From Spinacia oleracea (Eukaryota; Streptophyta; Magnoliopsida; Caryophyllales; Amaranthaceae), in NCBI RefSeq assembly GCF_020520425.1, contig NC_079488.1, forward strand, positions 18,850,247 to 18,914,246: a stretch of DNA of 64,000 bases, written 5' to 3'. Within the stretch, counting starts at the first letter, position 1. Each line of letters begins with the position of its first letter. The position numbers and the translations under genes are program-made. The notes beneath the pieces are model-generated. The model saw nothing but the letters and a program-made list of their open reading frames with translations. It did not search any database and was not told where the DNA came from. Positions 27,833-58,513 of the stretch are shown here, piece by piece.

Positions 27833-30800
27833 TCAAAGACTCTCTAAAAACTTGAGGGTCTCGTTAATATGTTTCTCGGGTTGAAATTGATTGTTGTAAA
27901 CAAGTTGCACAACTCCATTTTTGTCAAGGACGTAAGTTTGTCTCCCTGGGAGAGCTCCAAAGAGATCCGAAGGGATCCCCCATTCTTTTCTCACGCTGTT
28001 ATCTTCATCGCTTAGTAAAGTGTAAGGGAGTCTGTACTTCTCTTTGAATGCCTGTATATATACATATATACATTCATTCAAAACTTTTCTTGTAGGATTT
28101 TCCATAACATGCATAACTTTTCTAATTGTCATAACAAGTTGTTTGCTAAATAAGTATCAAGTAAAATTTTGCATTTACCTTGTGAGACGATGGATCGTTA
28201 ACACTGATACCAATAACCTCTGCTCCTGCTTTCTTAAACTTTTCATATGAGTCTCTGAAAGAACAAGCCTGTGGAGAATGTGGAGAATGTACAGAAGGTC
28301 AAGTCATGACACTAACGGTCCTTTTGGTAGCCGGTAATAAACGGTGGAAATGAGAATAAATCCAAGTATTATGTGGCAAGAAATTAACATCATGATATTC
28401 ATGGTAATGAAATTTTGTGTAAAAACTTGTGTTTTTCTTCATAAATTTGCATTCCCACACAATACCACTCTCTAAATGGTAATGGATGGTAATGGAAGTT
28501 TAATAAAGAAAATGAGATTATATTGAGTGAATTATCATTACATGGGAAATGAATATTGATTTTCCTTATAAATTCATATACAAATTCATTCTCATTGACA
28601 CTATTAATGACCGGCTATCAAACGGCAGTGGCGGAGCCAGGTAGGTGCATGACCCCCCAAAAAAATTTGGGAAAAAAATACTTATAGCTGAAATCTAAGT
28701 TTTTATTTAAAACCGATCTCTTAGGTTATACTTAAAAACACCCGCCCCGCAAGTAAGACATCTGGTATACAATAGAGATAATCATAAGAGACCATCCTTT
28801 CCAAACAACTGATCTCTTAGAGTTCTGAAAAAATATAGGGGGATAATCCTAAGAGACCAGTCTTTATAAATAACTTCTCACTTAGGATTTTGAATTTAAA
28901 CACCCGCTTTCTTAAATTAAGTAATTCTTTTCAGTTTTTACCACACATCTATAATTGTAATAATTTTGCACGATTATAATATGAATATTGATTAATTTTA
29001 GGACGATACATTTTTTTAGTAGTATATTGTGTGTTGTAGAAGATCACCGGACACAACACTCTAAAAATCTTGGGAACGCCCCTGCCGACACCCCAAAAAA
29101 ACATTCCTGGCTCCGCCACTGTCAAACGGGCCGTAAGAGAAACATTCAAGAGAAAATTTTAGCTCATCCCAAACCCATCCGGCCATCCCCAGACTAATGA
29201 AAGGGTGTAACATAACAAAAGGTCTTGCGCGCACAAGGTGTACAATAAATTTATTGTACACCAAGATAACTTTTATGCAGTTTTTTGTAACTTTAACCTA
29301 TTTTTCTTTAACTTTTATATTATAAAATTAAAAAGTTGATAGATAAACATTTTAAATGGTTAAATGATTAATTTATACATTATTAGTGATTTTGAAGAAA
29401 TAATTTTTATTCAAATGAAAAATTTATCATTAAAAAATAGATAACTTATACATATATAAATGTAACTTTTAAGCATTTTGATTCAACTTTTACTCCGGTA
29501 TACAATATTTATTGTACACCCATTATAAATAAGAATTTGTGGTAACATAAAGGAAAATGGGAAATAATGTAACAATGAGATTTCCACATTAAAACACGAT
29601 TTCATATGATCAAGTTTTGACCACCAAAGTCAAATGCGGTCTAGCATTCCAAAAGGCGAAAGGTACCTTTACGAGGGGGTCATTAAAAGAATGAAGCAAT
29701 ATAGCATGGAATTCATACAATTATACACAAAATTTATGAGGGCCGTAATTAAAATACACTCGCAACTTTTCGCCCGGGGTGGCTGGGCCCTGAAGGAAAT
29801 AATGCCCTTGGTCCAAGTATGCATTCTATGTTAAGTCTAATAAATGCGGTTCAGTATTAATTAACAAGTTAATAATTCAGTGAGATCAAGTGAGCTGAAT
29901 GCCTAGCTAGAGGCCGCTTCAGTTCAAGTGGAATTAATGATATTAATCCACAGCTTACTCTTGACTGAACCCGTAGGGTCACACAAATAGTACGTAAACG
30001 GATCAAGTATTTAATGGCATTAAATACTCCATCTATGAATATTCGGAACCGACGGATCTTGGTTTCAGTGGGAGTTAAGATCGTCACAGGCAAGAAATGA
30101 ATACTCCGGAAACGATGATATTGCCGAAAACGGAAATATGGATCGTGTCGGAAATATGAATATTATCCAAGTCGTAGATGTTGCCGGAAACGGAAACATG
30201 GTACGTATCGGAAAATATTATTGGAAATGGAAATATTACCAGAATCGGAAATATTGCCGGAAACGGAAATATTGTCAGAATCGGAAATATTACCGGAATC
30301 GGAAAATAATTCCGGAAACGGAAATATTAAATATTTGTTCGAAACGGAAATTAATTCCGGAATCGGAAATATTAAATATTGTTCGTATCGGAAATAAATT
30401 CCGGAACTGGAAATTTAATCGGAAGCGTATCGTACGAATTAGCATCGGACGAGGCCTGCCGGACGAAGGCCCAGCACGAAGCCGGGCCATCGCCCAGCAA
30501 GCACGCGCGCGCCACAAGCCCAGCCAAGGCAGCGCCCAGGCCTACCACAAGGCAGGCCCAGCGCGCGCCAAGGCCACCGTTGCGTGGGCCGCGCTGCGTG
30601 GGCTGCTGCTCGCACGCGCATGGGCAGCCCTTGTGGCTGCCGTGTGTGTGTGAGTTTGTGCTCATGCGTGATTCCTAAATCTACAAGAGTCAGTGTATGA
30701 TTAAATTTCTATTCCTAATTGGATAAATTAATTAAATAGAATTCATGTAGGATTCTAATTTCAATTAATTCGTATCCTACTAGGATTACGATTCCTTTTC

Positions 30801-33800
30801 CATAACTCTATAAATAAAGGCCTAGGGGTCATAATTTATACACAAGTTTCAAAGTATTCAAAAGTGAGTTTTTTGAGAGAAAATTAAAACACACATCTTG
30901 CTCATAAAGTGCCGAAATTTTCTAGTACCTTAAGGGCGATTCTAGTTGGTCAATCTTAAGGCGGATCCGGACGTGCTGTGGACTATCTACGGAGGGACGA
31001 CACTTGGAGTCCTAAAGACTTGTTCTTGTTCGGTTCGGGCGCAGCTAGGGAGGGCATGCAACAAAGAGTATGCATCTAAATTATGCTATATGATTATGTG
31101 TAAATAATATGTTGTCTTGGGTTAATGGTTGTTTCCGCATGATCTATGTAATGTCATATGTATCATAACCTAACAGTGGTATCACGAGCCCCTTATTATT
31201 TTCATAATCTAAATTGCATGAACATGGTTAAATATTACAAATTTGCAAGAATTAAAAGGGGTGATTAATTTTCGTAATTGTTAATTAATTGCAAATTGCG
31301 TTTATTTAATTATACGTACGCAGTTTTTCGGCAGTTTCTTCGTTACTCATCCGAATTGAGTGATTTTTGTGTCAATTCCGCATGTAAAAGGCATTCTAAA
31401 ATTTTGACAAAAAAAGTATTTTTCTGCCGAACCCAGAATTCTCAAATTCGAAGCCTAACTATGACTTTTCGAAGGTTTTAGTTTTTCGAATGCAAAATTT
31501 CGTAAATTTAAGATGTTAAATTAAATATTTGCGATTCTTGTTGATAAATCTTGAATTTTTGATTGACCTACTGCATATGTTTAACAAGTTTGAATGCCTA
31601 GTCTTGTTAATTATGCAATCTAATTTGTAATTATGATTAATTTGTTGAAAATTAGAATAATTTAGAATTAATTTGATTTTCATAATTAATTGTAATTTAA
31701 TTAGAAACCTATGATTAAAAACCACCATAAAAATTGTAAATTTACGATAAATTTTAAATTTTTATGACCTAGACTTGAATCCATAACAATCGGAAATCAA
31801 TTGGATAATAAATTTTCGATTTTTTCGCCCTAAAATTATGAAATTAATAATATTTATTAATTTGTCATTAATTTTAAATATAAATTTTAAATTTTATGCG
31901 ATTCGTTCATATAACTTGCACGCACGAAGCAATGGACGCTTCGTGTTACCCTTAAGGGGTGTTGTATAATGCGAGCATGCGACGACGAGCAAGGGAGCTC
32001 GTCGCCCGTGCGGCACGAATGCAATGAGCAAGGGCGTAGTGCACGAGCACAAGGCAGCAGCCCTGCCTTGTGTCGTGTGCCACGAGCAATGAACGAATGG
32101 GCATGGGCGAAGGGCGAGCCAAGGCAGTCGCGTGTGGGCAGCAAGCGAGCTGCGCCACAGCGCGCACTGCCTCGCACAAGAGCGCGCAGCCTCGCGCGCA
32201 GCGAGCGCAAGCTCGCGTGCCACGAGCGCTGCGCCCAGCATCACTCGCGTGCACAGCGCGCGATGTCGCGCGCCCAGCGAGCGATGTCGCGCGCCAGCGA
32301 GCGATGGCTCGCGCCAGCGAGCGATGGCTCGCGCGCACAGCGAGCGATGTCGCGCGCCCAGCGAGCGATGGCTCGCGCGCCCAGCGAGCGATGTCGCGCG
32401 CCCAGCGAGCGATGTCGCGCGCGCGCACTGCGAGCGATAGCTCGCGTGCGATGAGCGCTGGCGCGCGCAGCGAGCACGATGTGTGCGGAGGCTTGCGATA
32501 GGGAAGCAGCAGCTATGCGACGAGCGCATGGGCTGCGCGCACATGGCCAGCAATGGCTGTGTGCGCACGGTCCATGGGCGTGCAACGCGTAGGGTGTTTG
32601 CGTTACGATTAGATCGTTTTGAATGTTTAATTTGAAAATTTCAGTTCACGTAATTTTAATTAATTTTAAAATTAATAATTTGAATTATTTTCTTGGATTT
32701 TAATTTTGAATATTATAATTATAATAAATGTTACTTATTCTAATTATTTTACTAAAATTAAAATCATGAATTAATTTAAATACGACTGAAATTAAATTAA
32801 ATTTTTGGATTCAATTATAAATTGATATGAGCTTTAAATTTTAATTAAATTTGTATGTTTCCGGTTGGACTAGAAATACATTTTTATGTTTAAAATTGGT
32901 AAAGCATATGAATTTACTGGTTTAAGTGGGAGCGCTTTTTAGTCATAAACTCTTGATTAGGTCTACAAATCCTTAAGGTTAAAACAACTTGATTAGAATT
33001 AATAAGGACTGAATAATTGGTAGATTATTGGTGCCCTTGATTAATTGCTGCAAATGTTTACGTGATGCATAATGTGTTTTACTAACCAGCTATGTGGGCC
33101 ATTCATGATAATGAATGGGTGAATGGTATATATTGTATATGTACTGTTTTGCAGGTTATGAAGTGACTAGTATGGCCCAAATAGGATAGAAAATATGGTC
33201 TGCGTACCATTAATTTGAATGTAATTGGTCTAAAGTACCAAAGTTGTTTTTCAATTCAAATATGGTCTGCGTACCATCAAATAGTTGTAATTAGTTTTAG
33301 TTATAGCTTATCCTATTTGAAGAAAATGGTGCCTCCCACGGAGATTTTCAAGACGGACTTTGAAGTCAAAGCTTCAAGATGAAGTCGGGCCATACTAGAT
33401 CACAAATATCTTATGCATGTTTTAAGTTATTTATTGCTTTAAATATGTCTTAAAATGCATGAGATCAAAAGCTTGATTATGTTGCATGATTAAGGATTTT
33501 AGTTCACTTAAAATCTAACCAACATAGTAAGAGCCTTAAGTTCCAAACTTAAAAATTGAGTTAAAAGGTGCCATGCCAAAATATACACTTGCTTGGATAT
33601 CCTTTACATCAATCTAGTAATAGTTTTCGCTCAGCGAGGTGTTACTTATTGGTCCTAAAGGGGCAAGGTACACAAATAATTGTGAGTACATGTTAGTTTT
33701 GGTGAAACTCAACGATATAAGTAAGGAGTCCTTTTATGTCGTGGCAAATTCGATAGGTTTACCTAATAAGTTCTTAGACGTACCTATCAACCAAGAATAG

Positions 33801-36800
33801 TTTCTAGACTATTAGCAAAAGGCTTTTGCTTACCTAAGATATTCTAGGATTAAGTCGACAAACTGTGCTTAGTTCTTCAATGATTTTAGGATCTTGGAAT
33901 CATTTTATTCACACCTGCCGGAACACATAACTTGAATAAAATGCTAATAAACATTGAATTATGCATGTATGCTAGAATTTAAGTTTATTAAGAGAAACTG
34001 TGAATGGTTATTTATTTGTTTATTCTTTTCAATTGTAGTTTTAATATGGCAAACAACAATCAAAACATCATCATGGGTTCTGAGCTTATGGTCAAGCTGA
34101 ACCTGACAAATTTTCTTGAATGGGAAGCTAAGCTAGTTGAAATAGTCAAACTCAATGGACTTGAGTATGTACTATCACATCCCATGCCAAGCTACTATGC
34201 CAGAGACATGACCCCTGAGAGATTTTACGCCTGGGATGCGGATCTCAAAAAGGTTATGAGTCTCATGCTGAACAATATCCCTGATGATTGGGCTAGAAGG
34301 TTTGTAGCCTATGAACCTTTTACGCTCATCAAGAATCTGAGGGATATCTGTCGTGGAAGTACGGAGGACAGGGACCTGAACGTCCATGAGTTGATTGAAT
34401 CAATGTCTGGGCTAAAGGTTAGTTCTCCCAACAGGTGTTATAGGATGGAGGTCCAAGAAACACATGTTCAGCTCCTTCGCACTAAACAGAGGGTAGGCGT
34501 CCCACTGAGGTTCCATGTGGATCTTATGTGTTCATATTTTGATCGCCTAAGTCTACTAGGAACACCAATAAGCGAAAGGATGGCAGTCTCTGTCTTGCTC
34601 AATTCACTACACAGTGGGTTTGGTCGCTTCAAGCAACAATACCTAAGTGAACCAAGAGAAGAAACAGTTGCAGAATTTATTCACCTTGTCAGAAAGGCTG
34701 AAATAGTACTGGACTGTGAAGCCAAAGATTTACTCAAGGCTAGAAAGAGACCATTCAAGAAAGGTGGAAAGTCCAAGGGCAATGCTAAATCAAAGCAGGA
34801 CAAGTCCACATCAAGCTGTCTTTATTGTGATGGAATAGGCCATTACAAAAGAGAATGTCCAAAGCTAAAGGAAGATCAGAAGAACGGAACAGTCGTTCCA
34901 TCTTCAGGTATTTTCGTTATAGACTGTATACTTGCTAATTCAACTTCTTGGGTATTAGATACAGGTTGTGGCTCACACTTATGTTCCAATCCACAGGGAC
35001 TAAGAAGAAGTAGAAAGTTAAGCAAGGGTGAAGTCGACCTACGAGTGGGAAATGGAGCACGGATTGCTGCATTAGCCGTAGGAACTTACTATTTGTCGTT
35101 GCCCTCCGGGCTAGTTTTGGAACTGGAAGAATGTTTCCATGTTCCAAGTCTTACTAAAAACATCATTTCAGTTTCTTGCTTAGATGCTAAGGGATTTTCC
35201 TTTATAATAAAAGACAATAGTTGTTCGTTTTATTTTAAAGAGATGTTTTATGGATCTGCTAGATTAGTCAATGGACTTTATTTATTAGATCACGACAAAC
35301 AAGTATATAACATAAATACCAAAAAGGCCAAAAAGGATGATTCAGATCTCACCTATCTGTGGCATTGTCGATTAGGCCATATAAACTTGAAACGCTTAGA
35401 AAGACTTCAAAGGGAAGGAATTCTAGAACCATTTGACTTAGAGGATTATGGTAAATGCGAATCATGTTTACTTGGCAAAATGACAAAGCAACCTTTCTCT
35501 AAAGTTGGAGAAAGAGCAAATGAACTATTGGGTTTAATCCATACAGATGTATGTGGACCAATGAGTACAAATGCTAGAGGTGGTTTCAGCTACTTTATCA
35601 CTTTCACTGATGACTTCAGTAGGTATGGTTATGTCTACCTAATGAAGCATAAGTCTGAATCCTTTGACAAATTCAAGGAATTTCAGAGTGAAGTAGAGAA
35701 TCAATTAGGCAAGAAGATTAAGGCACTGCGGTCTGATAGAGGCGGTGAATATCTGAGCTATGAATTTGATGACCATCTGAAAGAATGTGGAATTCTATCA
35801 GAATTGACTCCTCCTGGAACACCACAATGGAACGGTGTGTCAGAACGGAGGAACAGAACCTTGCTAGACATGGTCAGGTCAATGATGGGTCAGGCCGAAC
35901 TTCCATTAGAATTTTGGGGACATGCACTAAATACAGCTGCACTCACTATAAATAGAGCTCCGTCTAAAGCTGTCGAAAAGACTCCATACGAATTATGGTT
36001 TGGAAAGCCTCCAAATGTGTCTTTTCTTAAGATTTGGGGATGTGAAGTATACGTCAAACGATTAATTTCAGACAAACTTCATCCAAAATCTGACAAATGT
36101 ATCCTTGTGGGCTATCCAAAGGAAACAAAGGGGTATTACTTCTACAATACATCTGAGAACAAAGTGTTTGTTGCTCGAGATGGTGTCTTTTTGGAGAAGG
36201 ATCACATTTCCAAAATGACAAGTGGGAGAAAAGTAGACCTCGAAGAAATTCGAGTCGAACAACAAACTCTAGAGAATGCTCAAGATGACATTCAGGATGA
36301 AACTCAGAGATCTTTAGAAGAATCTGGTGAGAATCATGGTCAATCTAGAAATGTTACCCCGCGTAGATCGCAAAGATATAGATCTCAACCGGAAAGGTAC
36401 TTAGGTATTTTGACGAATGAGAGCTATGACGTTCTATTACTTGAAAGTGATGAACCTGCGACTTACAAGCAAGCTATGACGAGCCCTAGCTCCAAGCAGT
36501 GGCAAGAAGCCATGCAATCTGAATTAGACTCCATGTCTGAAAACCAAGTATGGGATTTGGTCGATTTGCCAGATGGCTACCAAGCCATTGGAAGCAAATG
36601 GGTTTTCAAACTGAAAAAGGACAAGGATGGGAAACTTGAAGTTTTCAAAGCTAGATTGGTTGCAAAAGGTTACAGGCAAGTCCACGGTGTGAATTACGAT
36701 GAAACCTTTTCACCAGTTGCAATGCTAAAGTCTATTCGAATAATGTTAGCAATCGCTGCATATTACGATTACGAAATATGGCAGATGGATGTCAAAACTG

Positions 36801-39800
36801 CTTTCTTAAACGGCGTTTTAACAGAAACTGTGTTTATGACACAGCCTGAAGGTTTTGAGGATCCAAAGAATGCTAAAAAGGTATGCAAGCTAAAGAAGTC
36901 AATCTACGGGTTGAAGCAGGCATCCAGGAGCTGGAATATACGTTTTGATGAAGCAGTCAGTGACTTTGGTTTCATCAAGAACACGGACGAATCTTGTGTA
37001 TACAAGAAGGTCAGTGGGAGCAAAATTGCTTTCCTAGTATTATATGTCGACGACATATTGCTTATCGGAAATGACATTCCTATGTTGAACTCTGTCAAGA
37101 TTTGGCTTGGGAAATGTTTTTCGATGAAGGATCTAGGAGAAGCACAGTACATATTGGGCATCAAGATTTACAGAGATAGATCTAAAAAGATGATTGGACT
37201 TAGTCAAAGCACTTATATCAATAAGGTGCTTGATAGGTTCAAGATGGCGGACTCCAAGCGAGGCTACCTACCCATGTCTCATGGAATGACTCTAAGCAAG
37301 ACTCAGTGCCCAAAAACACTTGATGAGCGTAGACGAATGAATGGGATTCCATATGCATCATTGATTGGTTCAATAATGTATGCTATGATATGTACACGCC
37401 CGGATATTGCGTACGCACTCAGTACTACGAGCAGATACCAGTCAGACCCAGGAGAGGCGCATTGGACTGCTGCCAAGAACATTCTGAAGTACCTGAAAAG
37501 GCACAAAGATGACTTCCTGGTCTATGGTGGAGATGATGAATTAATTGTTAAAGGCTATACGGACGCAAGTTTCCAAACCGACAAAGATGATTTCAGATCA
37601 CAGTCTGGGTTTGTCTTCTGCCTCAACGGAGGAGCAGTAAGCTGGAAAAGTGCTAAGCAAAGCACCATTGCGGATTCTACAACTGAAGCGGAGTACATTG
37701 CTGCACATGAAGCAGCAAAGGAAGCTATATGGCTAAGGAAGTTCATAGGAGAACTTGGTGTAGTCCCCTCCATTAAAGGACCAATAGCCCTGTATTGTGA
37801 TAATAACGGAGCTATTGCACAGGCAAAAGAGCCTAGACACCACCAGAGAGTCAAGCATGTACTTCGTAGATTTCACCTTCTACGAGAGTTCGTTGAAAGA
37901 AAAGAAGTCGAGATAAGCAAAATTGGAACTGATGACAACATATCAGATCCATTAACTAAACCTCTGCCGCAAGCGAAGCACAACTCGCACACTGCAGCTA
38001 TGGGAATCAAGCATATTGGAGAATGGCTTTGATGTCTCTGTTTAATGTTTTAAAGTTTTAGAGTTTAAATCTTTGTAAAACATTATTGGTTAATCATTCA
38101 CAATAAATGAAAGGAATTCATTTTTCCATTTAATTTGTGGTTTATTAAATGATGAGTCCCTTCAACTTGACGATATATTCAAGATAGACTGTCAGGACCA
38201 GTCCTGTGACTAAGAAATGTCTATCAAGTGAACTTGAATGTCAAAGGTTGAAAATGGTCCCTAATCGGAGTTTTCTATAAAATTGGACGCATAGAAAACG
38301 TTAGACGATTAGAATGCAAGATGACTAGTAGTTCTGTTTCTTGAACTATGTGGACATGGCAATGTCATAATCATTTGCATAGATACTTACTTTGGGAAGA
38401 CTAGTATCGGACAAAGACCTATGAAACTTTACTGTAAGAGATGAAAATCTGTCATGAGTAAATTTCATTAAAATTATTAGACACTAAATCCTCAATACCT
38501 GAGTGATTTGAGATTACTTGTTTGAGAACTGGTTGCTTTGACGTTGACCAACCGTCGCACCGTAAAAGGAGGCTATAAAGGCAACGCTCAGGTAATCACC
38601 TATCAAACGAAGTCTAATCTCAAGATCGCAAGATTGGGATTTTCCTCCCATAAATCGGGATGAGATGCTTAAAAGTTGTACAAGGCCACTCGGAGAGCTA
38701 GAAACTGTGAAATGCATGGCCGTGCTCGGATGAATCATAGGCTATGATTATCTGTTTATTTGATCAGTTAAACTCTGAAACCGAGGAACACCTCTGGACA
38801 TAATAAGGATGACAACTCTTACCTTATGTTCAAGAGCAAGCATCGAGCGACAAAGGAATTAGGAAATGCACACTTGTCCCTAAGGACAAGTGGGAGACTG
38901 AAGGAAATAATGCCCTTGGTCCAAGTATGCATTCTATGTTAAGTCTAATAAATGCGGTTCAGTATTAATTAACAAGTTAATAATTCAGTGAGATCAAGTG
39001 AGCTGAATGCCTAGCTAGAGGCCGCTTCAGTTCAAGTGGAATTAATGATATTAATCCACAGCTTACTCTTGACTGAACCCGTAGGGTCACACAAATAGTA
39101 CGTAAACGGATCAAGTATTTAATGGCATTAAATACTCCATCTATGAATATTCGGAACCGACGGATCTTGGTTTCAGTGGGAGCTAAGATCGTCACAGGCA
39201 AGAAATGAATACTCCGGAAACGATGATATTGCCGGAAACGGAAATATGGATCGTATCGGAAATATGAATATTATCCAAGTCGTAGATGTTGCCGGAAACG
39301 GAAACATGGTACGTATCGGAAAATATTATTGGAAATGGAAATATTGCCAGAATCGGAAATATTGTCGGAAACGGAAATATTGTCAGAATCGGAAATATTA
39401 CCGGAATCGAAAATAATTCCGGAAACGGAAATATTAAATATTTGTTCGAAACGGAAATTAATTCCGGAATCGGAAATATTAAATATTGTTCGTATCGGAA
39501 ATGAATTCCGGAATCGGGAATTTAATCGGAAGCGTATCGTACGAATCAGCATCGGACGAGGCTCGCTAGACGAAGGCCCAGCACAAAGCCAGGCCATCGC
39601 CCAGCGAGCCGCACGCAACGCACGCCTCGACCAGGCCCAGCGCAAGGCCAGGCCCAGCCTAGACACCACCAGAGAGTCAAGCATGTACTTCGTAGATTTC
39701 ACCTTCTACGAGAGTTCGTTGAAAGAAAAGAAGTCGAGATAAGCAAAATTGGAACTGATGACAACATATCAGATCCATTAACTAAACCTCTGCCGCAAGC

Positions 39801-42800
39801 GAAGCACAACTCGCACACTGCAGCTATGGGAATCAAGCATATTGGAGAATGGCTTTGATGTCTCTGTTTAATGTTTTAAAGTTTTAGAGTTTAAATCTTT
39901 GTAAAACATTATTGGTTAATCATTCACAATAAATGAAAGGAATTCATTTTTCCATTTAATTTGTGGTTTATTAAATGATGAGTCCCTTCAACTTGACGAT
40001 ATATTCAAGATAGACTGTCAGGACCAGTCCTGTGACTAAGAAATGTCTATCAAGTGAACTTGAATGTCAAAGGTTGAAAATGGTCCCTAATCGGAGTTTT
40101 CTATAAAATTGGACGCATAGAAAACGTTAGACGACTAGAATGCAAGATGACTAGTAGTTCTGTTTCTTGAACTATGTGGACATGGCAATGTCATAATCAT
40201 TTGCATAGATACTTACTTTGGGAAGACTAGTATCGGACAAGACCTATGAAACTTTACTGTAAGAGATGAAAGTCTGTCATAAGTAAATTTCATTAAATTA
40301 TTAGACACTAAATCCTCAATACCTGAGTGATTTGAGATTACTTGTTTGAGAACTGGTTACTTTGACGTTGACCAACCGTCGCACCGTAAAAGGAGGCTAT
40401 AAAGGCAACGCTCAGGTAATCACCTATCAAACGAAGTCTAATCTCAAGATCGCAAGATTGGGATTGTCCTCCCATAAATCGGGATGAGATGCTTAAAAGT
40501 TGTACAAGGCCACTCGGAGAGCTAGAAACTGTGAAATGCATGGCCGTGCTCGGATGAATCATAGGCTATGATTATCTGTTTATTTGATCAGTTGAACTCT
40601 GAAACCGAGGAACACCTCTTGACATAATAAGGATGACAACTCTTACCTTATGTTCAAGAGCAAGCATCGAGCGACAAAGGAATTAGGAAATGCACACTTG
40701 TCCCTAAGGACAAGTGGGAGACTGAAGGAAATAATGCCCTTGGTCCAAGTATGCATTCTATGTTAAGTCTAATAAATGCGGTTCAGTATTAATTAACAAG
40801 TTAATAATTCAGTGAGATCAAGTGAGCTGAATGCCTAGCTAGAGGCCGCTTCAGTTCAAGTGGAATTAATGATATTAATCCACAGCTTACTCTTGACTGA
40901 ACCCGTAGGGTCACACAAATAGTACGTAAACGGATCAAGTATTTAATGGCATTAAATACTCCATCTATGAATATTCGGAACCGACGGATCTTGGTTTCAG
41001 TGGGAGCTAAGATCGTCACAGGCAAGAAATGAATACTCCGGAAACGATGATATTGCCGAAAACGGAAATATGGATCGTATCGGAAATATGAATATTATCC
41101 AAGTCGTAGATGTTGCCGGAAACGGAAACATGGTACGTATCGGAAAATATTATTGGAAATGGAAATATTACCAGAATCGGAAATATTGCCGGAAACGGAA
41201 ATATTGTCAGAATCGGAAATATTACCGGAATCGGAAAATAATTCCGGAAACGGAAATATTAAATATTTGTTCGAAACGGAAATTAATTCCGGAATCGGAA
41301 ATATTAAATATTGTTCGTATCGGAAATAAATTCCGGAACTGGAAATTTAATCGGAAGCGTATCGTACGAATTAGCATCGGACGAGGCCTGCCGGACGAAG
41401 GCCCAGCACGAAGCCGGGCCATCGCCCAGCAAGCACGCGCGCGCCACAAGCCCAGCCAAGGCAGCGCCCAGGCCTACCACAAGGCAGGCCCAGCGCGCGC
41501 CAAGGCCACCGTTGCGTGGGCCGCGCTGCGTGGGCTGCTGCTCGCACGCGCATGGGCAGCCCTTGTGGCTGCCGTGTGTGTGTGAGTTTGTGCTCATGCG
41601 TGATTCCTAAATCTACAAGAGTCAGTGTATGATTAAATTTCTATTCCTAATTGGATAAATTAATTAAATAGAATTCATGTAGGATTCTAATTTCAATTAA
41701 TTCGTATCCTACTAGGATTACGATTCCTTTTCCATAACTCTATAAATAAAGGCCTAGGGGTCATAATTTATACACAAGTTTCAAAGTATTCAAAAGTGAG
41801 TTTTTTGAGAGAAAATTAAAACACACATCTTGCTCATAAAGTGCCGAAATTTTCTAGTACCTTAAGGGCGATTCTAGTTGGTCAATCTTAAGGCGGATCC
41901 GGACGTGCTGTGGACTATCTACGGAGGGACGACACTTGGAGTCCTAAAGACTTGTTCTTGTTCGGTTCGGGCGCAGCTAGGGAGGGCACGCAACAAAGAG
42001 TATGCATCTAAATTATGCTATATGATTATGTGTAAATAATATGTTGTCCTGGGTTAATGGTTGTTTCCGCATGATCTATGTAATGTCATATGTATCATAA
42101 CCTAACAGGCCCACCCTAGGCAAAGGGAAGATCCGCCATTGCTTAAACACCCAATATTGGTCCACTTAACTTAACATGACCACTATTAAGTACTCTGTAG
42201 TATCATGATCCCTATAATATGTGTTCTTTAAGGGTTTACAAAAGGTTCTAACAAGAATAGCAAATACTCCGTACTTATTAAGGATATAGTTCTTTCACAA
42301 GGACATTTCTAAAGAAATACAGCATTAGAATCAAAATTCATAGTTACAACCAAATTCACAACCTACATATACCAACCAAAGCCAAAATAAAGCAATAAAC
42401 CGAATACTTCTTGTAAAAGACAGTATGACAGGTTCCGTTTCGTTATCAGATATTAGTCAAACAAAAAACAATAGAACAATAGGAAGAGAAATAAAGGTAA
42501 GGACCTGTTTGGTGCAACCAGGGGATTCATCAGCAGGATAAAAGTAGACAACAACAGGCTTCCCTTTAAACTTAGACAAGCTCACATTCCTTCCATCTTG
42601 ATCTTTCAAACTAAATGCTGGTGCCAAAGTACCTTCTTTAACCTGCATTTTCAACAAATAATTTACAAAAATTAACAAAAAAAAACCAGAAAAATAATAA
42701 TATAAATAGTCCCCTAATCAAGCATAAATTTGAGATGTAATTAGATTGCTTAGGTGTGATTAGATAACTTTGGGCACCTAAATTTAACCTCTTCTAATAA

Positions 42801-43284
42801 AATTTACTGGAAAAGGAAATAGAAAATCCCAAATTATCTAATTAGATGTACTCTGCTGAATATTTGCAACAATTTGACTGTCACAGTTGCAAGTTACTAT
42901 TTTGACCGTAATTATACCCAATGACATATTAGTAAACACTTAAAAGAATAGATATTTGAAAATTTTAAGATTAATACAACAACATCTTACACAATAACAT
43001 TAATTTGTACATTAATAAGAAAATATGGTCAAAATTAATGTATGAATAATGCAAAAGTAAAGTTTGGAAGAGAGTAGTACCTTAGCAATAACGGAAAGTT
43101 TGGAAGAACGAGAGGTAAAAGGTGAGGAGAGAGGAGATGTGTGTGACAATTTGAGGCCGCAAAATTGGGATTGTGTTGCATTGGAGAGGATGCAGAGATT
43201 CTGAGAAGAAATGGGTTTTCGGGTTTGGGTTTGGGTTGGGAGAGTGGAAATAAGGGAGTGTTTGGGGAGAGAGAGGGAAGCCAT
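27833..43284 (-). CDS. PRXQ: Peroxiredoxin Q, chloroplast, copy B (four exons, 14.2-kb intron 2)
   Basis: Exons on the minus strand: 43284-43081, 42642-42505, 28268-28179 and 28051-27833. They join in frame to 216 aa; all junctions are GT-AG and each falls at phase 0, exactly as in copy A. Exon 1 is a Ser-rich chloroplast transit peptide (68 codons). The enzyme is a thioredoxin-dependent thiol peroxidase: peroxidatic Cys111 (PGCTKQ) and resolving Cys116 (ACSFRD) have the C-X4-C spacing of the PrxQ class. Other kept blocks: [52 protein letters not shown]. About 13 of 148 mature residues differ from copy A; the conserved SGDD after the second block is SVND here (V137, N138). Intron 2 spans 14,236 nt because of nested transposons, including a complete copia element. 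Homology to copy A's intron on both sides of the insertions shows these four exons are one split gene, not two fragments. Whether it is still spliced is unknown. Confidence 0.82.
28316..29133. mobile_element. Tourist-like MITE, interrupted by a hAT element
   Basis: Left end CGGTCCTTTTGGTAGCCGG and right end inverted CCGGCTATCAAACGGGCCG, with TAA on both sides (28313-28315, 29134-29136), the PIF/Harbinger duplication. The right inverted repeat is split by the hAT insertion at 28626-29121, whose duplicated target is part of that repeat. The MITE itself is about 314 bp once the insertion is discounted. Lies in intron 2 of PrxQ-B, absent at the matching site in copy A. Confidence 0.85.
28626..29121. 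mobile_element. hAT non-autonomous element
   Basis: 496 bp with 16-bp terminal inverted repeats CAGTGGCGGAGCCAGG, flanked by a perfect 8-bp duplication TCAAACGG (28618-28625, 29122-29129). No transposase frame. Inserted in the right end of a Tourist-like MITE. Confidence 0.92.
29237..29520. mobile_element. Foldback MITE-like element with palindromic end
   Basis: The left end 29237-29262 is a perfect 26-bp palindrome of the form GGTGTACAATAAA plus its reverse complement. The right end repeats TACAATATTTATTGTACACC. AT-rich, non-coding interior; flanks unresolved. Confidence 0.5.
29791..31175 (+). repeat. 5' LTR of copia element
   Basis: Starts TGAAGGAAATAATGCCC and ends CATAACCTAACA. U3 holds a degenerate array of about 18-bp units with GCCGGAAACGGAAATATT character (about 30107-30420), then a GC-rich block. 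TATAAATA at 30809-30816 is a good promoter TATA box, putting the RNA start near 30840. Confidence 0.95.
31177..31190 (+). other. Primer-binding site of copia element
   Basis: TGGTATCACGAGCC starts one base after the 5' LTR and matches the initiator-Met-tRNA type priming site in its first eight bases. Confidence 0.85.
31191..34045 (+). other. Long untranslated leader of copia element
   Basis: About 2.85 kb between primer-binding site and Gag start without a credible gene. It is AT-rich except for the GC-rich minisatellite listed separately. Short direct repeats ATATGGTCTGCGTACCAT occur at about 33194 and 33261. Confidence 0.7.
31970..32590. repeat. GC-rich minisatellite in the copia leader
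   Basis: Degenerate tandem units of roughly 20-40 bp built from GCGCGCCCAGCGAGCGATG, densest at 32250-32450. It is very different in base composition from the surrounding AT-rich leader. Long open frames on both strands here are composition artefacts (Arg/Ala/Ser-rich in all frames). Confidence 0.8.
34046..38032 (+). CDS. Intact copia Gag-Pol polyprotein
   Basis: One uninterrupted frame of 1328 codons from ATG 34046; an upstream in-frame ATG at 34004 adds 14 hydrophobic residues and is less likely, as MANNNQN starts the usual Gag region. Order: Gag ([22 protein letters not shown]-type UBN2 region), CX2CX4HX4C zinc knuckle near residue 257 ([14 protein letters not shown]), protease [10 protein letters not shown] near 302-311, HHCC finger ([12 protein letters not shown] ... 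CESCLLGK), integrase core ([26 protein letters not shown]), RT with YVDD at about 1000-1003, and RNase H ([28 protein letters not shown]). Length and motifs are those of a complete copia polyprotein, so this copy could in principle supply proteins. Confidence 0.95.
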   Translation: MANNNQNIIMGSELMVKLNLTNFLEWEAKLVEIVKLNGLEYVLSHPMPSYYARDMTPERFYAWDADLKKVMSLMLNNIPDDWARRFVAYEPFTLIKNLRDICRGSTEDRDLNVHELIESMSGLKVSSPNRCYRMEVQETHVQLLRTKQRVGVPLRFHVDLMCSYFDRLSLLGTPISERMAVSVLLNSLHSGFGRFKQQYLSEPREETVAEFIHLVRKAEIVLDCEAKDLLKARKRPFKKGGKSKGNAKSKQDKSTSSCLYCDGIGHYKRECPKLKEDQKNGTVVPSSGIFVIDCILANSTSWVLDTGCGSHLCSNPQGLRRSRKLSKGEVDLRVGNGARIAALAVGTYYLSLPSGLVLELEECFHVPSLTKNIISVSCLDAKGFSFIIKDNSCSFYFKEMFYGSARLVNGLYLLDHDKQVYNINTKKAKKDDSDLTYLWHCRLGHINLKRLERLQREGILEPFDLEDYGKCESCLLGKMTKQPFSKVGERANELLGLIHTDVCGPMSTNARGGFSYFITFTDDFSRYGYVYLMKHKSESFDKFKEFQSEVENQLGKKIKALRSDRGGEYLSYEFDDHLKECGILSELTPPGTPQWNGVSERRNRTLLDMVRSMMGQAELPLEFWGHALNTAALTINRAPSKAVEKTPYELWFGKPPNVSFLKIWGCEVYVKRLISDKLHPKSDKCILVGYPKETKGYYFYNTSENKVFVARDGVFLEKDHISKMTSGRKVDLEEIRVEQQTLENAQDDIQDETQRSLEESGENHGQSRNVTPRRSQRYRSQPERYLGILTNESYDVLLLESDEPATYKQAMTSPSSKQWQEAMQSELDSMSENQVWDLVDLPDGYQAIGSKWVFKLKKDKDGKLEVFKARLVAKGYRQVHGVNYDETFSPVAMLKSIRIMLAIAAYYDYEIWQMDVKTAFLNGVLTETVFMTQPEGFEDPKNAKKVCKLKKSIYGLKQASRSWNIRFDEAVSDFGFIKNTDESCVYKKVSGSKIAFLVLYVDDILLIGNDIPMLNSVKIWLGKCFSMKDLGEAQYILGIKIYRDRSKKMIGLSQSTYINKVLDRFKMADSKRGYLPMSHGMTLSKTQCPKTLDERRRMNGIPYASLIGSIMYAMICTRPDIAYALSTTSRYQSDPGEAHWTAAKNILKYLKRHKDDFLVYGGDDELIVKGYTDASFQTDKDDFRSQSGFVFCLNGGAVSWKSAKQSTIADSTTEAEYIAAHEAAKEAIWLRKFIGELGVVPSIKGPIALYCDNNGAIAQAKEPRHHQRVKHVLRRFHLLREFVERKEVEISKIGTDDNISDPLTKPLPQAKHNSHTAAMGIKHIGEWL
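38033..38881 (+). other. 3' untranslated internal region of copia element
   Basis: About 850 nt between the Pol stop and the polypurine tract with no coding capacity. The same sequence recurs at 39859-40706 and, inverted and diverged, at 58514-59285. Confidence 0.8.
38882..38898 (+). other. Polypurine tract (first copy)
   Basis: AAGGACAAGTGGGAGAC directly before an LTR start (TGAAGG). An identical tract precedes the terminal LTR at 40706-40722. Confidence 0.8.
38899..39655 (+). repeat. Extra, partial, variant LTR inside the copia element
   Basis: Starts as a normal LTR (TGAAGGAAATAATGCCC) but breaks off after 757 bp, in the GC-rich part of U3, and joins the end of Pol at AGCCTAGACACC. Its last 110 bp (GAGGCTCGCTAGACGAAGGC; ACGCCTCGACCAGGCCCAGC) do not match the terminal LTRs but resemble the LTR at 57112-58513 (inverted). 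Confidence 0.9.
39656..40722 (+). repeat. Second copy of the 3' internal region with RNase H tail
   Basis: Corresponds to 37830-38898 with about ten differences and two 1-bp deletions (roughly 1% diverged). The first 203 nt (to 39858) repeat the last codons of Pol including its stop, without any upstream coding sequence, so this is a non-functional RNase H tail. Confidence 0.92.
40723..42107 (+). repeat. 3' LTR of copia element
   Basis: 1385 bp, co-linear with the 5' LTR without indels; differences seen at 41005, 41076, 41987 and 42047 regions. Followed by the GGCCC duplication. Confidence 0.95.
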
Positions 43285-43491
43285 TGTTGAAGGAGATCGA
43301 AAGAGGTGTAAAAAATGTAAAAGGGTGCGAATTAAAGGTGAGAGTTACTCCGTAGTAATGTTGGAAGTTGTTAGAACAAGTGGTGGTTTAGTGGACTTCC
43401 TTTGTGCGTGTGGAGATTCGTTGGCCAGCCAGCCAACTCCGAACTTTGTCTCTTTGATTTTTACATGACCAATATCATAAGGTACGATTGT

Positions 43492-44205
43492 CGACATAAA
43501 CTATCTCGGTGGTACGTATGCCCGACAACGTCAATATTTTTTGGAGAAAATTTTGTTGATTAGTACCAAAGATGTTGATGGCCGGGATGGCCCGAAGCCC
43601 CAACCCGACCCGGTATGAAAAAACCCGGTCTAATATGGGCATAAAGTCGTGGGTTGGGCCTGGGCCTTAATCTTTTGGGAAAAAGTACGATAAGACACGG
43701 CACGACTAGACCTGATATGACAAAGCATGCGAAATTTAGTAAAATTGACCTTAGGCACGACAGTCGGCCCTACCCGGAACGAAAGCACGTGGGCTCGGGC
43801 CGGGTCGGGTCGACATAAACTATCTCGATGGTACGTAATCCCGACAACGTCACGATATTTTGGAGAAAATTTTGTTGATTAGTACCAAAAATGGTTGTGG
43901 CCGGGCTGGCCCCCGACCCGATATGAAAAAGCCCGGCCTGGGCACGAAGTCGTGGGTCGGGTCTGAGCCTTAACTTTTTGGGAAAAAACACGACAAGGCA
44001 CGGCACGATTCGACCTGGCATGACAAAGCACGCTAAATTTAGTAAAATTGACCTTAGGCACGGCGGTCCGGCCAGGAACGAAAGCACGTGGGCTCGGACC
44101 GGGCTGTTTTGAACTTTTCGGCCAGGCCCGATACAAGTGGGCATGCTATGTCTCGGCCCGGTTAGGCCCGTGGGCTCAGTCCGAAGCCCGGCCCACGACG
44201 ATCTT
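43492..44205. repeat. CCGGGC-rich dispersed repeat in tandem duplicate
   Basis: Two direct units (43492-43810 and 43811-about 44108), both starting CGACATAAACTATCTCG and sharing GAAAATTTTGTTGATTAGTA and GAAAGCACGTGGGCTCGG. About 90% alike by eye. A relative flanks the CACTA element (49976-50243 and 55132-55205). Superfamily unknown. It starts about 210 bp upstream of the PrxQ-B start codon. Confidence 0.75.
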
Positions 44206-46117: not shown

Positions 46118-49100
46118 TCAAAGGCTTTGTAGAAACTTGAGGGTTTCGTCAATATGCTTCTCGGGTTGAAATTGATTGTTATAAACGAGCCGGACAACTC
46201 CATTCTTGTCAAGGACGTAGGTTTGTCTCCCGGGGAGAGCTCCAAAGAGATCCGAAGGGACTCCCCACTCTTTTCTCACGTTGTTACCCTCGTCACTTAG
46301 TAAAGTGTAAGGAAGTTTGTACTTCTGTTTGAATGCCTGTATACATTCAAAGGAAAATATGTAAAAAGGTGAGCGGATATAATAAAATATGGATAAAGTA
46401 TGGTAGATAGGTAAAAGGTAGGCGCGTGTAAGAAAAAAAAGGAATGAAGTAAGAGAAAATGAGTGGAAAGTTGAAAATGTTGTGGGATAAGTGGGGTAAG
46501 ATAGTAAATTTTCATGTTCAAAAATAGAATAAAGCAAAGGGTAAAGAACATTATGAAACCGACTGAACCAAAAAGTGTAAGAATCATTTTGAAACGGAGG
46601 TAGTATGTTTTAGAGATTCATAGAGACAATTCAAGAAGTGCAACAAGTTTTGCTTCGTTAATACCTAGTTGATTTATGAAGCTAGTAGTTTTGGATAACA
46701 CAAAACAATTTCATGATAGACAAGAAAGTCAACTAAAAGTAGACTGGAATTTCTCAAGGCATAACACAAAACAATTTCATTATACAACAACGAATAAGCT
46801 ATACTCCAGGGGAAGAACACAAGTACACAACATCAGAATTTCCAGTGTTCTTTTTTTCTTCTCTTTTTTGGTTCGATAAAGTGCAGTGATGCAACTTTGG
46901 AGACATGATTTTATCCCACATCTTGAATGCCACCATTCAACAACTCCACACTAGATTACAAACACCATAATTTCCCTTTCTTAGGTGACTTAAAAAATAC
47001 GAAATTGTTGTTGTAATACTGCATGAGTTGAAGGACTTTTTCTCCATGCCAATAACACAGACAATGATGTTTTTTAATTGAATGTAAATATTTGCTGAGC
47101 AAGTATGGACAACTCTAGAATTTTGTATTTACCTTGTGAGATGATGAATCATCGCCACTGATACCGATAACCTCTGCTCCTGCTTTCTTAAACTTTTCAT
47201 ACGAGTCTCTAAAAGCACAAGCCTGTGGTGAAAATGAAGAAAGTCAAGTCATAAGGTAAGAAGTAAGTCGCGAACCAGTTCCATGACAGTAAGAGTGACA
47301 TGGTAAATACATTGTTGCAAAGACCAAAAAACAAATATTCAAGAGTCAAGACTCAAGAGAACATTTTGCCATCTTCAAAGCTGTTTTATTAGCACAATGG
47401 CAAACCAATTAATAGGAGAATGTCACATACGTTGGAGGTGCAATGTCTTTTATTGGCTATTCAGTTGGTTTTTACTTCTTACAGGAAAGAGAAGCAGAAG
47501 CCTCAACCCTTCTGCACAGTATAGCTGCATAGGCAGAGGATTCCATATATCCCAAAGAAAGCAATCTTCCACGGGAGCTTTACATGAATGTCAAGTAAGA
47601 AAAATACTTAGAAATAGAAAACAGTACACTAGTATAACATTCGGTCCTCAATAACAATGCATTATTTGATACTGGCTTGGTTTCACCACTACCCCTAGTT
47701 ACTTGTAATTTCCAGTGAAAAGAAAAAACGATATATGAATTTGGCAGCTTAAGGCCCCGTTCGGCCGTTCGGTATCGTTTTTTGTTTTTAGTTTTCTGTT
47801 TTTTACAAAATATGAAAACCACATAAAGTAGTTTCCAGTTTTTTGTTGCCAGTTTTCGAAATCAACATAATTACTAATTTACTATAAGTATGACTATTTT
47901 TTAGCTCATGATTCAATCTAGTTCATATGACTTTTAAAACCAAACAAACAAAAACTGGAAACAGGAAACAGGTAGTGATATTTATCTTTTGCTTTGCAAA
48001 CAATTGAATACGTCAAGGATTCCTAATATCAAGAACATAGAAAATTTTCAATTTTGGAAGCGCATTTGATTTGCCAGAGGATTGTTGTTGGCCAAGGACT
48101 CTCTCCTTTAGGATGTCCAGATAAATGCTGAGCTTTTACTCCTTGATTCCTTCACTATCAAATATTCCATGTTCATTGCATATCCTATACATACAATGTA
48201 ACCTAACTAAATGTCTAAAATCATTTCTAAATTGTTGATCACCCTAATCAGCATAGCATACCTCATCAACAATCCATCAAGAGATTTGCTGAACAATTGA
48301 TAATCCTCTGATAAACATAATGTTAGAACAAATTAATCTAAGCAACTGCTTGAAAATGATGAGTGCTGAGACTGCTGACAGCTTCAAAAGGAAAGGGCAT
48401 TGTTTATTCTTCCTCCACCAATGTAATTTAATTCGAGGTCGTTTATCACCATGTGGTAGCTACTATACAATGTGACTATACTGTATGGTAGCTACTATAC
48501 AATGTGACTATACTGTAAGCCATAGTTAGGTTGATCAACTTTTCAATATTATTGACATACAAAATGAAGTTTAGCACTCCTGAATATCATATTATAAAAT
48601 CATGGCATTAAAATACCCGAGGTTGATCAAGTCTCCATTGGTCATTTGATTGACATATAATAGCTCATCCCAAACCCATCCCAAGACTAATGGTTAAGAC
48701 TGAGGTCTTGGCCTAGTGGTTAAGACTGAGGGTTTGTGTACATTAGGCATCAGGTTAAATTTCCCCCCACCACCACATTTGTAACTTATATTGCCCTTGT
48801 GGCTCATTCCCACGCACAACAGTTTTATAAATATACATTGTTCCACTTACCTTAACATGATCACTGTTTAGTAGCATTATATATCAATCATGATCCCTAT
48901 AATATGTGTTCTTTAAGGGTTTACAAAGGTTCTTAACAAGAATAGTAAATACTTAAAGGATATAATTCTTTCAAAAAAGAGGCATTAGAATCAAAATTCA
49001 TAATTAGAACAACAGGTGAAAAGGGAGAAATTAAGGTAAGGACCTGTTTGGTGCAACCAGGGGTTTCATCAGCTGGGTAAAAGTAAACAACAACAGGCTT

Positions 49101-49490
49101 CCCTTTAAACTTAGACAAGCTCACATTCCTCCCATCTTGATCCTTCAAACTAAATGCAGGTGCCAAAGTACCTTCTTTAACCTGCATTTTCAACAAATAA
49201 TTCACAAAAATTAAAAACCCAGAAAAAGAAATATTCACTGAAAAAAAAATCAGAAAATCCCAAAATTACACAATTCTAGCAAAATGCAGCACCTTAGAAA
49301 CAATGGAGAATTTGGAAGAACGGGAAGGGAATGGGGAGGAGAGAGAAGATGGGTTTGACAATTTCAGTCCGCAAAATTGGGATTGTGTTGAATTGGAGAT
49401 GATGCAGAGGCTTTGAGAAGAAATGGGTTTTGGGGTTTGGGTTGGGAGAGTGGAAACAAGGGAGTGTTTGGGGATAGAGAGGGAAGCCAT
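46118..49490 (-). CDS. PRXQ: Peroxiredoxin Q, chloroplast, copy A (four exons)
   Basis: Minus-strand exons 49490-49293, 49181-49044, 47222-47133 and 46336-46118 join in frame to 214 aa, the usual PrxQ length; introns are GT-AG and phase 0. Residues 1-66 form a Ser/Pro-rich transit peptide ([10 protein letters not shown]...). The mature enzyme reduces hydrogen and alkyl peroxides with electrons from thioredoxin in the chloroplast, associated with thylakoids in known plants. Peroxidatic Cys109 (TPGCTKQ) and resolving Cys114 (ACAFRD) are four residues apart. Also seen: [42 protein letters not shown] and [18 protein letters not shown]. The chosen start matches copy B; an in-frame upstream ATG at 49646 would add a poly-Leu stretch coded by a CTT repeat and is rejected. 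Its 5' region differs from copy B by a MITE and the CTT repeat. This is probably the main functional gene. Confidence 0.93.
46363..46603. mobile_element. MITE-like repeat in intron 3 of PrxQ-A
   Basis: Right end GAAACGGAGGTAG then TA; shares TAAATTTTCATGTTCAAAAA and AATAGAATAAAGC with 21061-21339. The left end is not clear. Absent from the short intron 3 of copy B. Confidence 0.55.
47223..49043. other. Intron 2 of PrxQ-A (1.8 kb)
   Basis: Contains a foldback-like segment with GGCCCCGTTCGGCC end (about 47753-47990), a 27-bp duplication (GTAGCTACTATACAATGTGACTATACTGTA type, 48455-48515) and a SINE-like relic at about 48690-48810 (GGCCTAGTGGTTAAGACTGA). The parts near exon 2 (48838-49043) and near 48660-48695 align with the two sides of the transposon stack in PrxQ-B intron 2. 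Confidence 0.6.
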
Positions 49491-49975: not shown

Positions 49976-50243
49976 AAGTTGGTTGTGGGCCGGCCTGGAC
50001 GCAAAAAGCCCGGTCCGCACGGGCAAAAAAAAAAAGCACACTCCGGCACGAGCAAGAAGTCATGGGCTAGACTTGGGCCTCATTTTTTTAGAAAAAGCAT
50101 GATAAAACACGATCTGATAAAGCACGCTAAATTTAATAAAATTTGGCTTAGACACGACGATAGGCTGGTATTATGGTCCGTGGGCCTGGGCACTATTTTA
50201 AATTCTCCGTCTGGAATGGCCCGATTCAAAGTGGGTTTGTCTT
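49976..50243. repeat. Dispersed CCGGGC-rich repeat, left half
   Basis: Related to 43811-44108 (TTGGTTGTGGGCCGGCCTGG; CACGCTAAATTTAATAAAAT). Interrupted by the CACTA element; the rest is at 55132-55205 (GGACCTGAGCTGTTC...CCCGACCCG). Confidence 0.65.
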
Positions 50244-50269: not shown

Positions 50270-50705
50270 ACCGCCAAAAGTAGTTGGTAAAACACGAAAA
50301 ACGGTTGGTAAATGTTTTAGCGACCGCCAACTGCCGCAAAAAGGCGGTCAGTGTTCACCTGGACGGTAATTAAGGAAACTCCGACTGAATAGCGGTCGCT
50401 AATATTTACCGTCAGAAATAGCGACTACCAATGCAGTCACTAATTTAGTGCCAGTCTAAGCAGCCGCTAATTTGGTGACCGTCAAGGCAGTCGCTAAATT
50501 AGCGATCGTTTAGGCGGTCACTAAATTACTGACCGCTACAACGGTCGCTAAATTACCGTCCGCTTAAATGCTCGCTAATTTAGCGACTGCTTAGACGGTC
50601 ACTAAATTAACGACTGCTTAGACGGTCACTAAATTAGTGACTGCATTGGTAGTCGGTAATTTAGCGACCGCTTTGACAGTCGCTAAATTTTAATTGTAGT
50701 CGCTA
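50270..50705. repeat. Left subterminal repeat zone of the CACTA element
   Basis: More than a dozen copies of a core like AGCGACCGC/GCGGTC(A/G)CTAA in both directions, alternating with AATTTAGTGAC. Expected sites for the TNPA-type DNA-binding protein. Confidence 0.8.
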
Positions 50706-57111: not shown

Positions 57112-58513
57112 TGTTAGGTTATGATACATATGACAAAATATAAATCATGGGGAAAACCTTAATGCCAGGAAAACATATTATTTACACATAATCATTTAGC
57201 GTAATTTAGGTGCATACACTTTGTAGCGTGCCCTCCCTAGCTGCGCCCGATCCGAACAAGAACAAGTCTTTAGGACTCCAAGTGTCGTCCCTCCGTAGAT
57301 AGTCCACAGCACGTCCGGATCCACCTTAAGCTTGACCAACTAGAATCGCCCTTAAGGTTCCTAGGAATTTCGGCTAAATGGTTGCAAGTGTTTTGGCTGA
57401 TTTTTGCTTCAAAATCTTACCTTTGAATATTTCAATGTTGTTTATAAATTTGTGACCCTAGGCCCCTATTTATAGAGTTATGGAAAAGGACTTATAATCC
57501 TATTAGAATACTAATCTAGTTTAATTAGAATCGTGCTAGGACTCTTTTAAATAAACTTTATCTATTAGGATTAGAATTTAATCATATGTCGAATCCCGAT
57601 AGCTTTAGGATTTTTATAGCACGCACACGAGCATCGCACGAGCACCGTTCACCCGCTCGCAGGCCTTACGGCCCACGCTGAGCGCACAGCGCCTCGGCCC
57701 AGCTCGCTGCCAGTGATCCGCGCGCGTGCCCAAGGCCTTGGCTGGGCCTGGCCTTGCGCTGGGCCTGGTCGAGGCTTTGGCGTGTGGTTTGTTGCGTGTG
57801 GCTTGCTGGGCGACGACCTGGCTTTGTGCTGGGCCTTCGTCTAGCGAGCATCGTCCGATGCTAATTCGTACGATACGCTTCCGATTAAATTCCCGATTCC
57901 GGAATTCATTTCCGATACGAACAATATTTAATATTTCCGATTCCGGAATTAATTTCCGTTTCTAACAAATATTTAATATTTCCGTTTCCGGAATTATTTT
58001 CCGATTTCGATAATATTTCCGATTCTGACAATATTTCCGTTTCCGGCAATATTTCCGATTCCGGCAATATTTCCATTTTCCAATAATATTTTTCGATACG
58101 TACCATGTTTCCGTTTCTGGCATCATCTACGACTTGGATAATATTTATATTTCCGATACGATCCATATTTCCGTTTCCGGCAATATCATCGTTTCCGGAG
58201 TATTCATTCCTTGCTTTTGACGATCTCACCTCCCACTGAAACCAAGATCCGTCGATTCCGAATATCCATAGATGGAGTATTTAATGCCATTAAATACTTG
58301 ATCCGTTTACGTACTATTTGTGTGACCCTACGGGTTCAGTCAAGATTAAGTTGTGGATTAATATCATTAATTCCACTTGAACTGAAGCGGCCTCTAGCTA
58401 GGCATTCAGTTCACTTGTTCTCACTGAATTATTAACTTGTTAATTAATACTGAACCGCATTTATTAGACTTAACATTAAATGCATACTTGGACAAAGGGC
58501 ATTATTTCCTTCA
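57112..58513 (-). repeat. Copia-family 3' LTR, minus strand
   Basis: Full-length (1402 bp), inverted: TGTTAGGTTATGATACATAT to TTTCCTTCA. TATA box on the minus strand near 57470-57478 (CTATAAATA). Followed rightwards by the inverted polypurine tract GTCTCCCACTTGTCC. Its GC-rich block is the closest match to the extra LTR at 38899-39655. Confidence 0.9.

Follow-up and report, generated by a model that had tools for sequence, protein, structure and literature searches.

A whole, young Ty1-copia element lies antisense in the second intron of one of two tandem genes for peroxiredoxin Q (PrxQ), a presumed chloroplast peroxidase, in the window analysed here (the complete 64,000-nt stretch of spinach DNA, C2:18850247-18914246 of an 894.2-Mb, 242-contig assembly), and its insertion is almost certainly real, single and recent. 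Taken as a whole, the locus is probably best explained as a PrxQ copy that had been held under constraint, received this copia insertion not long ago and would still be spliced in part. Both genes are on the minus strand, with copy B, which carries the element, at 43284-27833 and copy A at 49490-46118.

Repeat-rich plants must splice over element-filled introns, and clean pairs of a loaded and an unloaded gene only kilobases apart are few. Here copy A serves as the control, the insertion can be dated, and a single junction, that of exon 2 with exon 3, reports splicing and joins both redox cysteines. Moreover, the insertion is young enough that accessions lacking it may still exist, and the element itself would offer a case from nature of family members recombining as an insertion was made.

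The tandem PrxQ genes

The features of the two genes are as follows.
43081..43284, minus strand: PrxQ copy B exon 1, presumably encoding the transit peptide (its translation matches that of copy A exon 1 at 78%)
42505..42642, minus strand: PrxQ copy B exon 2, with the peroxidatic cysteine (DESPGCTKQ; gene model)
28269..42504, minus strand: PrxQ copy B intron 2, 14,236 nt, between the codons of the peroxidatic and the resolving cysteine (gene model)
28179..28268, minus strand: PrxQ copy B exon 3, with the resolving cysteine (ACSFRD; gene model)
27833..28051, minus strand: PrxQ copy B exon 4 and stop (gene model)
46118..49490, minus strand: PrxQ copy A, same four-exon layout, intron 2 of 1,821 nt (gene model and protein match)

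The sequence-only reading had described copy B as a four-exon gene free of stops, with the phases of copy A, GT-AG borders and both catalytic cysteines, and it proved right almost to the base: the coding sequences of 651 nt (copy B) and 645 nt (copy A) hold no internal stop, the three exon junctions of copy B are all in phase 0 and all GT-AG, copy A shares this layout, and the cysteines are encoded in exons 2 and 3 of a gene whose product matches the Pfam domain AhpC-TSA at E=3e-41 (copy A, E=6.9e-42). Peroxiredoxins carry the motif PxxxT/SxxC around the peroxidatic cysteine, and copy B has it as PADESPGC. In both copies, GCTKQAC places the resolving cysteine five residues past the peroxidatic one, as expected of a PrxQ; the same spacing was found in 17 of 33 prokaryote homologue rows, all of them distant sequences. 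These rows comprise 29 loci plus L027, L029, L041 and L042, of which L027 and L042 are identical and L029 and L041 nearly so; L028, at the same place as L041, and L040, a second gene beside L042, were left out.

The phase-0 splice sites of plant PrxQ genes are given as 74-0, 126-0 and 156-0, with 126-0 common to Arabidopsis, Selaginella and PpPrxQA (PMC3095285). These conserved land-plant exon borders are found in copies A and B, and intron 2 of copy B fits 126-0, the positions being matched by the 30-codon spacing of exon 3 and not by alignment (PMC3095285). One PrxQ is described in Arabidopsis (PMC3095285) and in rice (PMC5483221), as against two in tandem here. All eight PrxQ protein matches in the assembly (seven of seven candidates scored) fall inside copies A and B, exon by exon, and these two are the only PrxQ loci among the scored matches. 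None of the eight is a retrocopy of spliced copy B mRNA, an absence that proves nothing about splicing. Among the matches listed in the literature for 'peroxiredoxin Q' and 'spinach', no title concerned this locus, which is not a claim that the locus is unpublished.

Within 600 nt ahead of their start codons the two copies have only short blocks in common, the best being an exact run of 18 nt and one of 28 nt matching at 89% (E=2e-5 each). A foldback close upstream of copy A (50409-50698) has two 120-nt arms that are 85% complementary, lie 6 nt apart and are superimposed on a 27-nt period. Close upstream of copy B, at 43490-44103, lies a tandem duplication of about 300 nt of a GC-rich repeat, part of which has a relative upstream of copy A (50115-50159).

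Intron 2 of copy B and the elements within it

Intron 2 of copy B has exactly the borders first read (28269-42504) and a length of 14,236 nt, compared with 1,821 nt in copy A. Of this length, 12,317 nt (86.5%) belong to the copia element, and the remaining 1,919 nt come near the 1,821 nt of copy A. The claim that the intron flanks match intron 2 of copy A, and hence that the halves belong to one gene, is supported by a strong anchor on the right side (200 columns, 76%, E=5e-36) and a thin one on the left (21 nt exact at 29160-29180, E=4e-5). The sequence-only reading had named beforehand an assembly with the halves on separate molecules as evidence against the gene; both lie on one contig of the 894-Mb assembly. 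The intron 2 donor nonamer, CAG/GTCCTT (42496-42504 in B; 49035-49043 in A), is identical in both copies, and ATGACTTGAC close to the acceptor is kept in both; the exons, the intron ends and this common stretch near the acceptor are shown to have been left untouched by the insertion. The donor is unusual in matching the donor consensus at 4 of 7 places, which counts against the explanation preferred here but is equal in A and B. Since exon 2 ends with codons for GCTKQ and exon 3 begins with those for AC, intron 2 splits the two redox cysteines.

The elements in the intron, for the first four of which no strand is assigned, are listed below.
28316..29133: Tourist-like MITE flanked by TAA and split by the hAT-like element (from its terminal repeats, with the right end and its TAA taken from the sequence itself)
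28626..29121: hAT-like non-autonomous element in the right end of the MITE, 8-nt target duplication TCAAACGG
29237..29520: small foldback element, 14-nt arms at 29237 and 29507
29668..29790: older dispersed repeat, left part, split by the copia element (right part at about 42113-42145)
29791..42107, plus strand: whole Ty1-copia element, antisense to PrxQ copy B (LTR pair, domains, target duplication)
29791..31175, plus strand: 5' LTR, 1,385 nt (LTR comparison)
34004..38032, plus strand: open gag-pol frame, 1,342 codons (ORF and Pfam)
37830..38898, plus strand: 3' internal stretch, first copy (self-comparison)
38899..39659, plus strand: middle LTR, truncated (LTR comparison)
39656..40722, plus strand: 3' internal stretch, second copy, joined with a 4-nt AGCC overlap (self-comparison)
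40723..42107, plus strand: 3' LTR, four transitions from the 5' LTR (LTR comparison)

The Tourist-like MITE, the hAT-like element and the foldback element that had been read as stacked in this intron were all found, with terminal repeats or arms present, and the whole antisense 12.3-kb copia element was located at 29791-42107. The edge of the MITE lies 47 nt from the exon 3 acceptor. The nesting gives the order of events: the MITE was followed by the hAT-like element in its right end, and the copia element entered the older dispersed repeat. The copia target duplication, GGCCC, is present at 29786-29790 and 42108-42112. When the joined flanks were compared with the assembly (40 of 277 candidates scored; match spans transcribed by hand from the listing), 37 of the 38 listed matches outside the window continued without a break over the site of insertion, with 76-81% identity. 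These related empty sites, together with the target duplication and its matching 5-nt copies, argue for a clean, real single insertion.

As expected of Ty1-copia, integrase (rve, 510-607) precedes reverse transcriptase (RVT_2, 847-1091) in the one frame of 1,342 codons, and the LTRs read TGAAGG...CTAACA beside the 5-nt GGCCC duplication. The candidate primer site TGGTATCACGAGCC begins one base past the 5' LTR and the candidate purine tract AAGTGGGAGA stands ahead of the 3' LTR; the former may resemble a Met-tRNA primer site. In an LTR search of the assembly, in which the best 40 of 2,236 first-look candidates were scored, each of the 40 aligned along all 1,385 nt at 99-100%, and two of these are the LTRs of the present element in the window; the family is large, young and recently active-looking. 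Two older pieces of it, at about 84-96%, lie elsewhere in the window (57112-59340, minus strand; 62844-63985, plus strand). Short GC-rich tandem repeats with a spacing of about 21 nt were observed between the 5' LTR and the gag-pol frame (32191-32468).

Recombination, age and constraint

The first reading of a whole copia element held, but it had overlooked a third LTR (38899-39659) and a 1,824-nt duplication. The LTRs of this element are 10,932 nt apart, compared with 8,910-9,124 nt in 11 other pairs (hand-picked from neighbouring full-length matches judged to be pairs), and the excess of 1,824 nt equals the duplication (37830-40722), which consists of the second 3' internal stretch and the partial middle LTR. 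Over 761 nt the middle LTR is 99.3-99.5% identical to the LTRs at L032 and L033, as against 97.2-97.5% to the element's own LTRs. The element thus appears to be a recombinant in which part of an LTR derives from a different lineage of the family. The simplest account would be a backward template switch between two different co-packaged RNAs, either in the round that made this insertion or in a parent since lost or unscored. A tandem duplication inside the element after insertion was ruled out, the middle LTR being nearer to those at L032 and L033 while the element's own LTRs differ by 0.29%. The join of the duplication was not found in other family copies among the 40 scored of 1,115 candidates. 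In one family copy elsewhere, L034, the beginning of an LTR in inverted orientation adjoins the internal site at which this join lies; this is probably a nested insertion whose high rank is due to chance. Transposition bursts of ONSEN are reported to yield new copies that are pairwise recombinants of the members of one plant copia family (PMC5668417); here, by comparison, a natural integrated copy shows recombination that in addition doubled a stretch of 1.8 kb, leaving part of an LTR in mid-element.

Between the 5' and 3' LTRs, 4 of 1,385 sites are different, each by a transition, and two of these differences are private to the 5' LTR relative to both other LTR copies. Substitution rates in use are 1.3e-8 and 6.5e-9 per site and year, which place the insertion at 0.11 or 0.22 My (Poisson range over both, 0.03-0.57 My), an age that depends on these rates. 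Exact dating calls for caution, since the element is recombinant and an LTR pair can already be unequal at insertion if recombination accompanied the copying. Over this time an unconstrained coding sequence of 651 nt would be expected to gain 0.94 substitutions (0.26-2.41), and a simulated unconstrained copy B stays free of stops with a probability of 0.97 (0.93-0.99). Intact exons are therefore the default outcome of so young an insertion, and the exons are silent on the time since it occurred. The suggestion of the sequence-only reading that intact exons mark a gene tolerating the intron is accordingly not supported, since they are expected even if constraint had ceased with the insertion.

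The exons do speak of the time before. Between copies A and B, dN/dS is 0.09 (NG86) or 0.19 (YN00) in the mature part and 0.45 or 0.88, respectively, in the part encoded by exon 1. On an unconstrained branch of 0.12-0.21 (half the A-B synonymous distance), the simulated probability of remaining stop-free falls to 0.10-0.03 and 48 to 75 residue changes accumulate, compared with an actual total of 27 aligned residues differing between A and B. The low dN/dS and the low neutral stop-free probability argue that copy B was constrained before the insertion; intact exons thus point to selection before the insertion and not to splicing after it. By these comparisons, copy B would be a real second PrxQ, kept by purifying selection through most of its history after the split from copy A.

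Two departures at conserved residues were found in copy B. Three residues ahead of the peroxidatic cysteine it has Ser, where all 33 prokaryote homologue rows have Thr; Ser at this place is permitted in the general peroxiredoxin motif. Furthermore, at the position of copy A Asp136, which is Asp in 27 of the 33 rows, copy B has Asn. Both changes may have weakened or altered the function of copy B before the insertion. A one-sided decay of copy B before the insertion is not clear despite the two changes at conserved sites, because among the 13 mature-part differences copy A has the commoner residue in seven and copy B in six.

Known systems, expected splicing and competing explanations

Copy B is of a documented kind, that of plant genes with a recent LTR element in an intron; the kind is ordinary and the test case is clean. 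In grape, 2,697 large introns defined by ESTs hold 591 complete LTR elements, about 30% of the intronic LTR pairs exceed 99% identity, and some insertions vary by cultivar (PMC3058033). Like copy B, these grapevine introns contain whole, young, mostly copia elements in ordinary genes, but splicing there is shown by ESTs, whereas copy B is known from sequence and has in tandem copy A a built-in control intron (PMC3058033). In Arabidopsis, 206 of 241 intragenic transposons were reported in introns and about 17% of the intragenic ones reach 1 kb (PMC4417168); the element of copy B is likewise intronic, but it is whole and 12.3 kb long. A further likeness is COPIA-R7 in intron 1 of Arabidopsis RPP7, also a copia element in an early intron, whose 5' LTR provides an early polyadenylation site under EDM2/H3K9me2, whereas the element in copy B is antisense (PMC7529245). 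What is added here is the position of intron 2 between the redox cysteines, the two conserved-residue departures in copy B and the recombinant nature of the element.

AATAAA does not occur on the gene strand in either LTR, a zero that is not statistically striking. The internal part of the element holds 16 such hexamers, the first about 1.9 kb into intron 2, compared with three in intron 2 of copy A; early transcript ends are possible on this basis, although hexamers alone do not decide polyadenylation. In the course of events that we propose, the copia element would have landed antisense in intron 2 about 0.1-0.2 My ago, inside an old dispersed repeat, and copy B would most likely still be transcribed, with intron 2 removed at least part of the time and less full-length mRNA made. 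Because the splice borders are untouched and such introns are tolerated in grape, partial splicing with less full-length mRNA is the outcome towards which we lean; the LTRs hold no AATAAA on the gene strand, and copy A would cover any loss. Reading through the donor into intron 2 adds a 15-residue tail, so that transcripts ending in the intron would give a product of 129 residues (68 + 46 + 15) with the peroxidatic but not the resolving cysteine.

That the insertion instead killed copy B, the intron being too long or silenced, and left a very young, intact-looking pseudogene is possible, though we would not favour it. With 0.94 (0.26-2.41) neutral changes expected and a stop-free probability of 0.97, such a gene would have the same sequence as a working one, and copy A is present as a back-up; the untouched splice borders speak against it, as do the complete LTR elements common in introns of expressed plant genes, 591 in grape alone (PMC3058033). 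Copy B could also be a gene with a heterochromatic intron of the RPP7 or IBM1 kind, in which silencing marks on the element would decide between an early end in intron 2 and full-length mRNA, making the output of copy B dependent on a pathway like that of EDM2 and IBM2. This is suggested by an anatomy shared with COPIA-R7 in the first RPP7 intron (PMC7529245), by a likeness to the intronic elements of PMC4417168 and by gene-strand hexamers in the internal part that are candidates for polyadenylation, but it seems unlikely, since the early end of RPP7 lies in the 5' LTR, whereas the element here is antisense and has no gene-strand AATAAA in its LTRs. An assembly artefact joining two gene fragments over a repeat is hardly credible: an element whose family counts 40 or more nearly identical LTRs is indeed of the kind at which assemblies break, but the target duplication is matched and related empty sites exist, the duplication join is absent elsewhere among the 40 scored of 1,115 candidates, the intron flanks are colinear with those of copy A, and no other PrxQ exons occur among the scored assembly matches.

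Beyond the partial splicing preferred here, copy B might act as a switch, a reading that we consider quite improbable, in which a silenced element would permit splicing over 14 kb and yield the two-cysteine enzyme, while slipped silencing would yield the 129-residue protein, the whole being specific to certain accessions. If this were true, a chloroplast protein of 129 residues, lacking the resolving cysteine and the remainder of the enzyme, would be made beside an unaffected copy A.
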